Assembly: GCA_019744945.1 (NCBI GenBank)
Contig: JAIETT010000085.1
Span: 1-50,462, forward strand
DNA length: 50,462 nucleotides
DNA from: Burkholderiales bacterium
GTDB taxonomy: Bacteria > Pseudomonadota > Gammaproteobacteria > Burkholderiales > UBA11063
Direction: 5' to 3'
In this document: piece after piece, positions 5,126-40,799 of the stretch
How the letters are laid out: each line of letters opens with the position of its first letter
How positions within the stretch are numbered: position 1 is the stretch's first letter
Made by a program: the position numbers and the translations under genes
The notes under the pieces: generated by a model
Seen by the model: only the letters and a program-made list of their open reading frames with translations
Told to the model about the DNA's origin: nothing
The model's database searches: none

Positions 5126-5854
5126 TTAAAAATCTAAACCTAAACTTGTATCTATATCATCCCAGACGTCAATTTCAATTTTAGTTTTATTAAAGTATAA
5201 ATTAATTAATAATAGCTCAAAATCTGAATTACCACCAAAAGTTAATTGTTCACCAATTTCTTTACCCTCTAGCACAACTTGCCACAATGTGCCAACTTCA
5301 CTATCTGTGCCAACGGTTTCCCTTTCTGGCCAAATAGCAAAAAACACAGAACCCGCCTCATGTGAACTATATCTTTCGAATTCAGTTCTTCCGAGCTTAA
5401 TGTCAATCGTGTATTTATCGCGTAAAATATTGTGATAAAAATCATTATTTAGTTCATATTTTTCTCCATCATCCATTTTCTCTAGTAGATATGTCCGATA
5501 CATATCGTAGATTTCAGATAGTTTAATGCTTTCGCGTTTGGTGAAAAGCATTTGGTTAAATGATTGTTCGACTTTAAGCTTAATATCTTCTTTAAGTGTG
5601 AAGTTAACTAATTGATTGAAGTAATTGGTAATAAATCCGTGATAGCTGCTAAAATCAAATCCCTTCATTGATGCACCAATGACATCAGTCATTTTATTTT
5701 CAATCGATCTTTTTAGGTCATATGAATTCAGCGCAGAGTGCACGCTCTCGCGGATAGTTTTTTCCAATGATGTTTGAATTTGAGTTTCGATTATTTTATT
5801 CTCAGCCATTTCGCTAAGCTTGGCATTAACAATTGCTTGAATATCTAAGTTCAT
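5126..5854 (-). CDS. hypothetical protein, 242 aa
   Basis: ORF in leftward operon. Confidence 0.6.
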   Translation of the reverse strand: MNLDIQAIVNAKLSEMAENKIIETQIQTSLEKTIRESVHSALNSYDLKRSIENKMTDVIGASMKGFDFSSYHGFITNYFNQLVNFTLKEDIKLKVEQSFNQMLFTKRESIKLSEIYDMYRTYLLEKMDDGEKYELNNDFYHNILRDKYTIDIKLGRTEFERYSSHEAGSVFFAIWPERETVGTDSEVGTLWQVVLEGKEIGEQLTFGGNSDFELLLINLYFNKTKIEIDVWDDIDTSLGLDF

Positions 5855-18293: not shown

Positions 18294-18323
18294 TTGACAG
18301 AAAGCCATGGATTAGGATAGAAT
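18294..18323 (+). promoter_or_regulatory. sigma70 promoter of first C4-like leader
   Basis: TTGACA-18-TAGAAT. Confidence 0.7.
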
Positions 18324-18349
18324 ACCGTTAGAGCTGAAAAGCTTCGGAC

Positions 18350-18549
18350 TTGAAAACTCCTTTGTCTAGCGGTTAGCCGCTTCCGATATACATGGCTTTT
18401 TTTATATCTATACCTACCTATAGGTGTGGTTTCAAACCTACCCTAAACTTGCCGCGGTTTCAAACTATAGCAAGAACCAATGGCAGGAGAGGGCGAATAT
18501 AATACCCGCAAGGGGAATAAGCCTAGCCGTCTAGACACGGTGTTTTCAA
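18350..18549 (+). ncRNA. C4-like antisense/leader RNA, copy 1
   Basis: TTGAAAAC...TGTCTAG (seg1) complementary to CTAGACA...GTTTTCAA (seg2); located between promoter and Rha-type gene. Confidence 0.65.
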
Positions 18550-18622
18550 CTCCTGCCTTACCCAACAATTTGAAAACTTGTTTGGTAAGTTATTGAAAAC
18601 AATCTATGTCTAGGATCACATC

Positions 18623-19801
18623 ATGTCAAAAAATCAACTACCAATGGCGATAAAACCATCCACAACACCTAAACAACACATTCTGACTAATTTACTTAAC
18701 TGTTTCACCTTTGTGGATGTTGAAAAACAGTTAGTTATCGCAGCACCAATATTCCTACATCTTGGATATGATGAGGAATCAGCTGAGATGGTTTTATCCC
18801 AGCCGATGGTGCAACAATATACTAATTGCGCTGGATTTACCCCACGCGAAACATCATTTATTCGCATAGCTCAAATTGGTGAGCTAATTGTCAATGCGCC
18901 AAAAACTAAATATGTTGCTCACATCCTTGAATTTGTAAAAAACACACTAATGCCATTATTTAAGTCGCAGCAGCAAACTCAAGCGCAGATTAACTCTGAT
19001 TTTAGCCAAGAAATTACATTCAATCCAGTTAATGCAAATCAACCATTAACCATGTCGAGTTTAGAGATTGCTACGATGTGCGATAAAGAGCATCGTAACG
19101 TAATGGCGGATATAAAAAACATGTTTGAACAACTAGATATTAGTAGCGCTGATTTTTCAGCTGTATATAAAGCAAGCAATGGAAAGATGAATCCATGCTT
19201 TAATTTAGACAAAGAAATGTCATTGACCTTGGTTACCGGCTACAACGTCACTTTACGCCATAAAATCATTAAGCGCTGGCAAGAATTAGAAAATCAATTA
19301 ACTGGCGGTATGCCGCAAATTAGCGCCCAGCCAGTTGCTGTTGCACCAGCTCCAACCCGTGGACTACCTAGTGCCAAAGATTTAGCTTTGATGGTGATCA
19401 AATCCGAGGAAGAGAAAGAATCATTGTTAATTGATTATAACTTTCTGAGCGATACGCTTTGCCAGACGATTAGAGAAAAATCTGCAATTAGTTCTAAGCG
19501 TGAAGCATCGGTGATGGGTAAATTAGCCCGCGCCAATGATAAAATCCGTCGGCTGGAAGCGCAAGACGTGCTGGATCTAGATGGTGAAAAACTATCTTTG
19601 ATGCAAATTGCGAATAAATTGAACGTTGCACCGAATGCGATTGCTGCGGTGGTTGCACATTTGGGCATTCTTGGCTTATCTGCACTTGGCGAAGCTCGCT
19701 GCGTCGGTAAAAATAACGGCAAAGATGTAAGAGACTGGTTTTACAATCCTATGGCGGTAATCTTAATTCAACAAAATTTAGAAAGAGGTAAATTATTATG
19801 A
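18623..19801 (+). CDS. Rha-type phage regulatory/antirepressor-like protein, copy 1
   Basis: LTMSSLEIATMCDKEHRNVMADI...GYNVTLRHKIIKRWQELE (Rha domain) plus distinct N- and C-terminal domains. Confidence 0.85.
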   Translation: MSKNQLPMAIKPSTTPKQHILTNLLNCFTFVDVEKQLVIAAPIFLHLGYDEESAEMVLSQPMVQQYTNCAGFTPRETSFIRIAQIGELIVNAPKTKYVAHILEFVKNTLMPLFKSQQQTQAQINSDFSQEITFNPVNANQPLTMSSLEIATMCDKEHRNVMADIKNMFEQLDISSADFSAVYKASNGKMNPCFNLDKEMSLTLVTGYNVTLRHKIIKRWQELENQLTGGMPQISAQPVAVAPAPTRGLPSAKDLALMVIKSEEEKESLLIDYNFLSDTLCQTIREKSAISSKREASVMGKLARANDKIRRLEAQDVLDLDGEKLSLMQIANKLNVAPNAIAAVVAHLGILGLSALGEARCVGKNNGKDVRDWFYNPMAVILIQQNLERGKLL

Positions 19802-19981: not shown

Positions 19982-21154
19982 TTATTGGCTTACCAATAAA
20001 TCAATGAGATCAGCATAATCCTGCAGTAGTTTTGCGCGCGGTTCGCTGAGGTGTGTCTTAAGGTATGATTTGTTTACGCCTTTTTGAACATGACCCAATG
20101 CCATGTCAATAACTTTATAACTGTGGTTATTGTCAGCCAATAAAGTCATTGCGGTACGTCGCGCATCATGAGGAGTAAATTCACCAATTCCATATTTCTC
20201 ACCCAATTGTTTACAGTAGCGGCATAGTGTATCGCCACTATAATGCTCTTCGCGACAATTAAATACATATTTTGCCGCAGGATGTTTTTGTCGTAATTCC
20301 TTCAGTTTATGTACCAGCTGAAGAGGTATGCGGACAATGAAATTATCAATGCGTTTGGCATTTCTCACGGTGACTTTTTGATTAATCAAATCAATATCAG
20401 ACCATTCAAGACTAAGTAATTCATTGCGGCGTAGCATAGTGATAAATAACATATAAATAGCTGTTTTAATTGTTATTGGTATGTCATCATCATTCCATAA
20501 ATTCTTAAATAACCCACCCAATTTATTTTCATTTAAATATCGCGTGCGAACATTTATTTTATATCTGGCTTTTATATTAATCTCAAGCTTTTGCATGATA
20601 TATTTTTCATCATAAGCAAATCTGAAGATGGCTTTTATCTCGCGGAGTAAAGTTGCTGCAGTTGATGGTGATTTATGTTTCACTCGGTCAATAACACAAG
20701 CAATATCGGTTTCGGTAATTTTAGAGATAATCGTGCTATTCAACAGCGCAGCTTTATTTAGTACGGCAACCAACTTTGCTTTGGATTGTGCTTTAAGTGA
20801 ACGTTTGCATGAATCAATATAGATATCAACTATAGTACCAAATGTCTTGCCGAGTTTGGTCTGTTCTTTCTCATGAGTGTGGACGTTAATACCTTTACGT
20901 ATTAGACTGCGCATTTCATCCGCCAGCACTCTTGCTTTACTTAGAGTAATGTCGCGAGCGTCACCAATTAGCTTCCAACTTAACTGTGTCTTGTCACCTA
21001 TTTTGCTTTGTGTTCTTAGCTTCCATACATACGAATGTTTATTTTTGAATAGGTATAAGTTATGACCATCATGTAGAGATGAACCAAATAGTGATTCCCG
21101 CATAAAGTCATTGATATTTTGTTTAGTGAGTAGTTTAGATTTTATCTTTGGCAT
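19982..21154 (-). CDS. second tyrosine integrase (P4-like, DUF4102-type N-terminus)
   Basis: LYLFKNKHSYVWKLRTQSK..., TMLRRNELLSLEWSDID, HDARRTAMTLLADNNHSYKVIDMALGHVQKGVNKSYLKT. Confidence 0.95.
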   Translation of the reverse strand: MPKIKSKLLTKQNINDFMRESLFGSSLHDGHNLYLFKNKHSYVWKLRTQSKIGDKTQLSWKLIGDARDITLSKARVLADEMRSLIRKGINVHTHEKEQTKLGKTFGTIVDIYIDSCKRSLKAQSKAKLVAVLNKAALLNSTIISKITETDIACVIDRVKHKSPSTAATLLREIKAIFRFAYDEKYIMQKLEINIKARYKINVRTRYLNENKLGGLFKNLWNDDDIPITIKTAIYMLFITMLRRNELLSLEWSDIDLINQKVTVRNAKRIDNFIVRIPLQLVHKLKELRQKHPAAKYVFNCREEHYSGDTLCRYCKQLGEKYGIGEFTPHDARRTAMTLLADNNHSYKVIDMALGHVQKGVNKSYLKTHLSEPRAKLLQDYADLIDLLVSQ

Positions 21155-37900: not shown

Positions 37901-39301
37901 ATGTCACAAGAAAAAAGCGCACAAGAACCGAATAATACAACAACAGATTCAGTGGGAGATGCGATTAATTATCTTAAAAACATCATAAAGAATGGTAGCA
38001 AGGTTCTAGTGGCTTTTTTGATTGTCTTTATTTTTAGCATATTTTTGACACAATGTTCAAAAAAAGACTACACCAGTAGTCTTAATGCAATCGAGAGCGT
38101 GAGTGAGTATCAGTTGGTAAATGAATCAGTGCTAGAAAGTAGCGGACAAATAATCAATAATATTAGCAAATTAAATGGAAATAATCAGGCACTAAAACAT
38201 TATTTGGATAAAGATGTAAAAAGCCAGTTTAATGATGTTAGCGGCAGCATCGGTGCGTTAAATAGTCAAATCGGCAATTTATATTCTTTACTAAACAATA
38301 CTCTAATGGTAATGTCTATTATATTGGGGATTTTTACCTTAATTATTGCAGTTCTGGGATTTTACATATCTAATATAATTACAGCAAGGTATAGAGAAAT
38401 TAAGGCATCTGAAAAACAGATTAGCAAGATTAAAAATATTGTTATTGCTTCTGAAAAAGCGGCTAACGGTGCGTCAAACAGCGTTAAGAGAGTGGATAAA
38501 GTTGTAGAATCTTATCTTGCTGAAGCAGAAAAAATTGTTGGTATAATCAATGACTCATCGAAAGTAGTTAAGGAGTCATTGGACAATACACTAATGGTTC
38601 AGAATGAAGTGGAAAAGTATAACAATGAAATTCAAAATGCATTATCAAATAAAGGCCATGAATTATATGAAACTTTCAGGAAAGAACATATAGCTTCAAT
38701 AATAACGGATTTAAAAGAGAATGTTGAAAATATTGAGTTTTACCACTCTGAGCTGATAACAAATTTGAGGTATTTGTCTTTTAATGATCTAAACCAATGC
38801 TTAAATACCTATTATATATCGCCAAAAATATCTGCAGATCAGGAAATTTCTAGTAGATATGTGCATATATTGATGTTGTTAGATTTAGAAATGTGCCTTA
38901 GAGATGAATCTTTATTGATCAGAATTTTAAATCATAGATCTTATATATTAAAATTACCATTCACATATGTTCAATTAAAAAATTTATTCGGCTTGTTTGT
39001 TAGTATGACATTTAAAGATGAGCAGAAGTCTGATATTAAACATTTACTGGCTGGTTTCATTAAGAAAGATAATTATAGTAAATTTAGGTCTTTCTTCCGA
39101 AATATTGAGACAAAATCTGAAAGTGATCAATTTATAAAAGGACTGTTGAAATTTGATATAAATATTTTTGATGGGTATATTGCACGTTGGAAACAGTTTT
39201 GTGGGGATGGTGGAAATTTTTATGAAAATGAAATTAACAATATGGCACTAATGGAACAATTTAAGCTGGAATTAACGCCTGAAAATGAAAAAATATACTA
39301 A
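37901..39301 (+). CDS. 466 aa membrane-anchored coiled-coil moron
   Basis: Two TM segments, long coiled coil, ~200 aa unassigned C-terminal domain. Confidence 0.65.
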   Translation: MSQEKSAQEPNNTTTDSVGDAINYLKNIIKNGSKVLVAFLIVFIFSIFLTQCSKKDYTSSLNAIESVSEYQLVNESVLESSGQIINNISKLNGNNQALKHYLDKDVKSQFNDVSGSIGALNSQIGNLYSLLNNTLMVMSIILGIFTLIIAVLGFYISNIITARYREIKASEKQISKIKNIVIASEKAANGASNSVKRVDKVVESYLAEAEKIVGIINDSSKVVKESLDNTLMVQNEVEKYNNEIQNALSNKGHELYETFRKEHIASIITDLKENVENIEFYHSELITNLRYLSFNDLNQCLNTYYISPKISADQEISSRYVHILMLLDLEMCLRDESLLIRILNHRSYILKLPFTYVQLKNLFGLFVSMTFKDEQKSDIKHLLAGFIKKDNYSKFRSFFRNIETKSESDQFIKGLLKFDINIFDGYIARWKQFCGDGGNFYENEINNMALMEQFKLELTPENEKIY

Positions 39302-39303
39302 TT

Positions 39304-39330
39304 AAATGCACCCGAAGAGGTGCATTTTAC
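39304..39330 (+). terminator. intrinsic terminator
   Basis: aaatgcacccgaagaggtgcatttt. Confidence 0.75.
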
Positions 39331-39398
39331 ATTTATGGATTACTCAAATTGAGGAATCAAAGCATATCATTAGTTTATGTCGTAAGAGCAAGAAGGAA

Positions 39399-39426
39399 TT
39401 TACAAATTTGTAAATCATGATATAAT
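39399..39426 (+). promoter_or_regulatory. promoter of second C4-like leader with palindromic operator
   Basis: TTTACA-16-TATAAT; TTTACAAATTTGTAAA perfect 16-bp palindrome covers the -35. Confidence 0.75.
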
Positions 39427-39437
39427 ACGGGCAGGAA

Positions 39438-39573
39438 TTCAAAACTCCTTTAGTTAACTGTAAGCGGCGCCAACCGTTCAATGGCTTTTTTATTTTCCAC
39501 GCCCAAAAATCAATGGGTTGGAGTGCGACTAATATATTGAATATGTCCAGCCGTCTTACAGCGGTGTTTTGAG
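39438..39573 (+). ncRNA. C4-like antisense/leader RNA, copy 2
   Basis: TTCAAAAC...CTGTAAG (seg1) complementary to CTTACAG...GTTTTGAG (seg2). Confidence 0.7.
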
Positions 39574-39632
39574 CTCCAGCCCTACCCACAAGGTAGATAA
39601 TTCAAAACAACTTTCCCTGTAAGGAAATCATC

Positions 39633-40799
39633 ATGACTAAACAATTGCCAATGGCTATAAATTTGTCCATGGAATCAAAACAACACGTTTTAGAAAATCT
39701 TCTTAACTGCTTCACATTTGTTGACACCGAAAACAAACTGGTTATTGCTTATCCAGTCTTTTTGCATTTGGGGTATACCAAAGAATCAGCACAGGCAGTT
39801 TTATCTAAGCCGATGCTGTTACAATATACTAACCATAAAGGATTTGTCCCACGAGAAGATTTTTTCATTAGCATAGCTCAAATTGGTGAGCTAATTGTTA
39901 ATGCGCCAGAAGCTAAATATATATCTCATGTACTTGAATTTGTAAAAAACACGCTAATGCCATTATTTAAGCCAGCAGCACCTCAAACGTCACCAGAGAC
40001 AAATAAAATTGAATTAAATCCAGTTAAGGCAAGCGAGCCGTTAATGATGTCGAGCCAAGAGATTGCAAATGTTGTTAAACGTCGTCATGATAACGTAAAA
40101 CGCACGATGGAAATGTTACAGAACAAAGAGTTAATTAGTTTTACTCAAATTGAGGAAAACTCTGAAAGTAAAGTTGGCCGCCCTAAAACGGTATACCATG
40201 TTAACAAACGAGATAGCTATGTGGTAGTCGCGCAACTATCGCCAGAATTTACCGCCGATTTAGTGGATCGCTGGCAAGAATTAGAAAATCAGTTAGCTGG
40301 TGGTGTGCCACAAATTAGCGCACAGCCTGTTACTACAGCTCCAGCATTACCGAGCGCCAAAGATTTGGCCTTGATGGTGATCAAATCCGAGGAAGAAAAA
40401 GAATCTCTTTTAATCGACTATAATTTTTTAAGTAAAGAACTTTGCCAAACGATTCGAGAAAAGGCGCAAATTGGCTCCAAGCGCGAAGCTTCAGCATTAG
40501 GCAAATTAGCCCGCGCGAATGATAAGCTCAAGTTACGCGATGAGAAAATTTGTCAACTTGAGGCAAAATTAAGCAGCCCTGTGTCAGAATATGAGTATGC
40601 AACAATTTTAGCAGTGCAAAGTCGGCTGAAATATATAAAAGTTAGCGGTTTGAAATTAACTTACTTCTGTAATCGAAATGGTTTAGTTATTAAAGACATT
40701 CCAGATGACCGCTATGGTGCGGTACATTCGTATCCAGCGCAAGCATGGCGAGATGTGTATCAGATTGATATAAATGCAGTTTTAAATAAGGTAGCATAA
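39633..40799 (+). CDS. Rha-type phage regulatory/antirepressor-like protein, copy 2
   Basis: Shared N-terminus and linker with 18623-19801; LMMSSQEIANVVKRRHDNVKRTMEML...SKVGRPKTVYHVNKRDSYVVVAQLSPEFTADLVDRWQELE (Rha domain). Confidence 0.9.
   Translation: MTKQLPMAINLSMESKQHVLENLLNCFTFVDTENKLVIAYPVFLHLGYTKESAQAVLSKPMLLQYTNHKGFVPREDFFISIAQIGELIVNAPEAKYISHVLEFVKNTLMPLFKPAAPQTSPETNKIELNPVKASEPLMMSSQEIANVVKRRHDNVKRTMEMLQNKELISFTQIEENSESKVGRPKTVYHVNKRDSYVVVAQLSPEFTADLVDRWQELENQLAGGVPQISAQPVTTAPALPSAKDLALMVIKSEEEKESLLIDYNFLSKELCQTIREKAQIGSKREASALGKLARANDKLKLRDEKICQLEAKLSSPVSEYEYATILAVQSRLKYIKVSGLKLTYFCNRNGLVIKDIPDDRYGAVHSYPAQAWRDVYQIDINAVLNKVA

Follow-up and report, generated by a model that had tools for sequence, protein, structure and literature searches.

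The locus and its leaders

The window (the whole analysed stretch of 50,462 nt from a Burkholderiales bacterium) carries two plus-strand genes for Rha-type antirepressor-like regulators. The copy 2 gene (39633..40799, 388 aa) matches PF09669 at 2.1e-9 and the PHROG family phrog_63 (anti-repressor Ant) at 2e-24, while the copy 1 gene (18623..19801, 392 aa) matches the same families at 1.8e-15 and 7.4e-22. PF09669 scores in the two genes were 57.7 and 38.2 bits, both above the Pfam gathering score of 29.9, in agreement with the gene type that a first-pass annotation of this DNA had assigned to the 388-aa product. Copy 2 and its own promoter lie within a baseplate/tail gene block (37901-40799) of a contractile-tail prophage, a moron-like position. 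Named phages gave no blastn match to the copy 2 locus. A third, short Rha-type ORF (PF09669; 49537-49914) has no sRNA-Xcc1-type RNA upstream. Two integrase genes are present (1077-2240 and 19982-21154), and the window may therefore hold two adjacent prophages.

The copy 2 leader starts from a consensus-matching promoter, TTTACA-16-TATAAT (39399-39426, plus strand). Downstream of it, the first-pass annotation had described three two-block segments, and all six blocks were verified in the sequence where it had placed them. Segment 1 (39433..39464) displays the linker target TTCAAAAC (39438-39445) in the loop of a small AGGA/TCCT hairpin, followed on its 3' side by the loop target CTGTAAG (39458-39464), a layout that recurs in relatives. 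Segment 3 (39601..39625) repeats both blocks (TTCAAAAC at 39601-39608, CTGTAAG at 39617-39623), and segment 2 (CTTACAG, GTTTTGAG) is the complement of segments 1 and 3 alike. The CTGTAAG of segment 3 overlaps the Shine-Dalgarno (SD) sequence AAGGA (39621-39625) ahead of the ATG at 39633. The 50-kb window contains exactly two occurrences of the pattern TTCAAAAC-N(0-20)-CTGTAAG (39438-39464 and 39601-39623), and none of 100 shuffled windows contained two; the three-segment arrangement of copy 2 is not due to chance.

In the predicted fold, segment 2 sits within a cloverleaf-like RNA (39516..39581, plus strand) with an outer stem (39516-39523/39574-39581), a hairpin 2 (39550-39565) whose loop around 39555-39561 is antisense to the loop target, and an antisense linker (39566-39573) after this hairpin. 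The complete leader folds more stably than 200 of 200 shuffled versions (-62 kcal/mol, z -4.3), with segments 1 and 2 paired in the minimum-energy structure. Directly after segment 1 lies an attenuator-like element in the form typical of the family (39465..39491, plus strand), consisting of CGG, the hairpin GCCA-ACCGTTCAA-TGGC and a T run; it is weak and, taken alone, not significant. A search for a strict intrinsic terminator in both window copies returned none. The -35 box of copy 2 falls within a perfect 18-bp palindrome, ATTTACAAATTTGTAAAT (39398-39415), the sole such site in the window and a possible repressor operator.

The window's other Rha gene is preceded by a sister element (18350-18613) with the same order of segments and other letters, all three segments having changed jointly: the code TTGAAAAC / GTCTAG replaces TTCAAAAC / CTGTAAG. 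Its plus-strand features comprise a promoter (TTGACA-18-TAGAAT, 18294..18323), segment 1 (18347..18369; TTGAAAAC at 18350-18357 in a GGA/TCC hairpin, GTCTAG at 18364-18369), an antisense RNA matching RF02221 (18482..18565; loop CTAGAC at 18531-18536, linker GTTTTCAA at 18542-18549) and segment 3 (18593..18615; TTGAAAAC at 18593-18600), in which GTCTAG (18608-18613) overlaps the SD sequence AGGA (18612-18615). Predicted duplexes between segment 3 and the element's own RNA are of similar strength in copy 1 (-18.6 kcal/mol) and copy 2 (-18.9 kcal/mol). An extra TTGAAAAC (18570-18577) is located in a hairpin loop between the copy 1 RNA and segment 3.

On another contig of the same genome, a third element (L001) carries the code TTCAAACA...TCAGG, again with all three segments changed jointly, and precedes a gene whose product begins MSNQLPMTINPS, as in both window copies. 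Three different codes within one genome speak for selection on pairing. A fourth element (L003, contig C104, 1501-1583) has no clear upstream block; its loop matches a TACAAAG that covers the SD of a gene for an unclassified 104-aa protein.

The middle RNA is of the sRNA-Xcc1 type

The first-pass annotation had proposed a C4-type RNA and an RF01695 covariance search. This search (cut-off 45 bits) gave no match in the window, the region or the whole genome, although an outer stem, two hairpins and a loop-plus-linker antisense are all present; the identical search recovers C4 of phage P1 at 68.8 bits and CI of P4 at 74.9 bits. RF02221 (sRNA-Xcc1) instead matches copy 1 at 57.9 bits, above its cut-off of 53, and copy 2 at 26.3 bits, below it. 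As further candidates for the leader family, isrK (RF01394) and c4-a1b1 (RF03163) were searched up to E 10 for copy 2 and E 5 for copy 1, without a match.

We built a family model (R2) from 43 relatives with this genome excluded; an earlier model (R1) had lost the outer stem through a ragged alignment and was set aside. With E-values that are rough owing to a short calibration, R2 detects copy 1 at 62.5 bits (E 5.6e-16) and copy 2 over its full length at 30.1 bits (E 2.7e-6), outranked by copy 1 alone; the next-best match in the window has E = 0.1. A minus-strand match at 5750-5814 (14.8 bits, E 0.1) is probably due to chance. The stems of R2 covary strongly, with 143 two-sided changes against 47 ± 6.7 after shuffling. 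The copy 2 RNA does not have the inner CCCG-AAGGG mini-hairpin and, on its model scores and predicted fold, is a divergent relative of the sRNA-Xcc1 (RF02221) type. From its layout, the middle RNA is predicted to work like C4, yet it belongs with RF02221. By comparison, the C4/CI working plan is well supported, namely an antisense loop and linker, an upstream target and a target over an antirepressor SD, while membership in RF01695 is not. The conserved RNA measures about 66-88 nt, which leaves the earlier expectation of a ~140-nt species unsupported.

Most elements match their own neighbouring gene

Relatives were gathered with the exact core pattern in viral contigs and genomes and with RF02221 in gammaproteobacterial genomes (31/387). 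The six hairpin-2 loop bases and six 3'-linker bases of each RNA were then matched, in order, to the flanks, first for 129 loci and in a stricter test for 107 non-redundant loci; as a control, each RNA was tried on the flanks of other loci. In the stricter test, a perfect 12/12 match was present in the RNA's own downstream flank at 41% and in its own upstream flank at 63% of the 107 loci (control 1.3% in either case), and a match of at least 11/12 at 69% and 82%, respectively (control 19% and 24%). The loci are related to one another to some degree, so these rates do not represent independent events; the cross-locus control, however, is built from equally related loci. At 11/12, a downstream block is present in 74 loci, which display 74 different codes, with some chance matches among them according to the control rate.

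The ATG mostly follows 7-11 nt 3' of the downstream block, and an SD-like core overlaps or touches this block in 56 of these 74 loci. Eight of the 74 contain an extra copy of the linker target between RNA and segment 3, compared to an expected 1.3 (0/500 permutations). Predicted duplex energies ranked the own segment 3 target best for four of five RNAs, whereas segment 1 targets separated the codes less well. Upstream, the linker target of segment 1 is presented in the loop of a small hairpin, and the block is typically followed by CGG, a hairpin whose loop is of the CCCGnnAG type, and a T run. A terminator-like hairpin after segment 1 was found in 51 of 88 loci, against 2.3% of shuffled stretches; the attenuators of both window copies are weak. 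We also considered a general extension of the antisense pairing through the hairpin-2 stem into the CGG after segment 1, and rejected it, as it is present in some loci only.

Judged by their domain matches, the genes downstream of sRNA-Xcc1-type elements are mostly phage antirepressors. Pfam hits among 61 proteins encoded directly after a segment 3 (counts overlap) comprise Bro-N (16), P22_AR_C (10), Rha (8), KilA-N (8), P22_AR_N (6), AntA (6) and SymE (2), and anti-repressor families dominate their PHROG assignments. Named phages with an element include Aaphi23 and Rac-SA53 (both annotated 'ant'), Pmp3 ('anti-repressor Ant') and Acinetobacter phage 4316 (KilA-N).

RF02221 matches were obtained in 35 of 35 Xanthomonas genomes searched. 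In the symE cassette (L236, L261 and L262), TGAACAC...TCGAAG lies upstream, followed by a terminator ending GCGGTTTTTTT, an RNA whose loop is CTTCGA and whose linker is GTGTTCAA, and a segment 3 (TTGGACAATCTCGAAGGA, one G-U) over the SD of symE, whose product matches PF08845 at 7e-14. The three cassettes are nearly identical and thus provide evidence for the layout but no covariation. In Xanthomonas, most copies on the chromosome retain segment 1 with a terminator and show no segment 3, which suggests that acting on segment 1 is the more widely shared function. In the chromosomal copies L168, L171, L184 and L237-L260, segment 1 and a strong terminator, without a segment 3, are followed by small ORFs and SymE-like-looking proteins. 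We also looked for a Xylella-like genome with clustered copies and recognised none.

Proposed mechanism and alternative explanations

This computational analysis establishes the blocks and the fold, the covariation of both, and the gene type; with high confidence we propose that they reflect a prophage antirepressor gene silenced by a small antisense RNA from its own leader. A single transcript from the promoter would begin with segment 1 and the attenuator-like hairpin with its U-run, continue through the sRNA-Xcc1-type RNA and segment 3, and extend into the Rha gene. The small RNA would be cut out of this leader and, acting in trans, pair through its hairpin-2 loop and 3' linker with segment 3, covering the Shine-Dalgarno sequence and so blocking translation of the antirepressor. 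Through these patches it may also bind segment 1 and promote termination at the attenuator, as the attenuator's position and the precedent of P4 CI suggest. In an uncut leader, the predicted fold would let segment 1 hold segment 2 and leave the SD free. With a separate two-block code for every element, cross-silencing between copies is not expected. We infer superinfection immunity or lysogeny as the biological role.

A purely cis-acting attenuator, in which the three segments switch pairing inside a single transcript without the action of a separate small RNA, appears unlikely. The minimum-energy pairing of segments 1 and 2 in the full leader fits such a switch, and the first-pass view that one pairing excludes RBS exposure is plausible for a single molecule; the family pattern, however, better fits a processed trans RNA. 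The RNA folds on its own into a conserved structure whose stems covary, and Northern and RACE, in Xanthomonas only, have revealed its homologue as a discrete transcript of ~88 nt (PMC2996969). Moreover, segment 1 usually has a terminator of its own after it, and many transcripts would thus stop before reaching segment 2.

Still less probable is a general trans-acting regulator of virulence or host genes whose match to its neighbour is incidental. HrpG/HrpX control of sRNA-Xcc1 and many predicted targets, as reported in the literature (PMC2996969, PMC12189769 and a 2011 paper cited in PMC12444791), agree with such a function. The variable patches nevertheless match their own neighbour, and not those of other loci, in most of the 107 loci, and incidental matching would need repeated accidental co-change of the variable part with the neighbour. 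A reading of the repeats as remnants of duplication or as recombination hot spots, with no part in regulation, can practically be dismissed: segments 1 and 3 do repeat directly, and prophages are subject to recombination, but segment 2 is complementary rather than a direct copy, ATG spacing and SD overlap are conserved, and the three segments change jointly across 74 codes.

Beyond silencing by the leader-derived antisense RNA at this locus, we consider it likely that sRNA-Xcc1 (RF02221) constitutes an unrecognised further branch of the C4/CI class: an addressable lock built from two blocks, its code private to each locus, placed on phage antirepressors and, in Xanthomonas integrons, serving as an antitoxin-like silencer of the neighbouring SymE toxin. 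Northern evidence for sRNA-Xcc1 dates back to 2010, and the papers searched contain no confirmed target; the RNA is listed from Haemophilus to Xylella, annotated across Proteobacteria and proposed to act in virulence, even as a cross-kingdom RNA. A cassette survey ranks the symE/sRNA-Xcc1 cassette as the most widespread, describes the targets of sRNA-Xcc1 as unknown and leaves regulation open, suggesting only a 'divergent regulatory mechanism' for symE (PMC12444791). Among the open papers searched, a Xylella vesicle study is the sole text to name both C4 and sRNA-Xcc1; the two stand next to each other in its list, and its target predictions concern virulence and the plant (PMC12189769). We found no assignment of sRNA-Xcc1 to antirepressor control in these open papers; resting on them, the novelty of this reading is provisional. 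A neighbour-matching code would give every locus a precise predicted target, its own adjoining gene. C4-type immunity control would thereby extend to many prophages and to the integron-borne symE cassette, and immunity specificities would become readable from sequence.

Comparison with known systems

C4 of P1 and P7 (RF01695) shares with the present elements an outer stem around two hairpins, an antisense hairpin-2 loop and 3' linker, a target copy upstream, a target over the SD of the next gene, and a leader with CGG...CCGC...GCGG and a T run. In P1, the sequence TTGACAG...GTTAGTG-CGG...CCGC...GCGGTATTTTT lies upstream of the RNA, and the ATG that comes next is preceded by ...GTTAGTGAGG. The C4 antisense target in P1 is the icd gene, in front of ant, whereas the sRNA-Xcc1-type target is directly the SD of a Rha-, Bro-N-, KilA-N-, P22_AR- or AntA-type gene. 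The conserved sequence also differs, with a AATACAATACCCG-AAGGGGAATA core in the sRNA-Xcc1 type; RF01695 misses these elements, and our family model in turn misses P1 and P4. Within Rfam, C4 and c4-a1b1 both belong to clan CL00128, while RF02221 has no clan. C4 is processed by RNase P from a longer transcript and acts in trans; for the present elements, we infer both processing and trans action. C4 has an immunity function in P1, and its mechanism is summarised in PMC5320573.

P4 CI (seqA/seqB/seqC), which scores as RF01695, has the same order of target, antisense RNA and target and an early terminator after the first target (PMC4825925). Its reported action is transcription termination of replication genes, whereas here the second target covers an antirepressor SD. 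The Gifsy-1 IsrK/STnc1160 leader likewise combines a short terminated leader RNA with a processed downstream RNA in a prophage operon (PMC4825925), but its family, RF01394, does not match the window elements. sRNA-Xcc1 of Xanthomonas integron cassettes belongs to the same RNA family as the present elements and shares the order of segment 1, terminator, RNA and a segment 3 over the symE SD; it differs in its known context, an integron cassette and virulence regulators.
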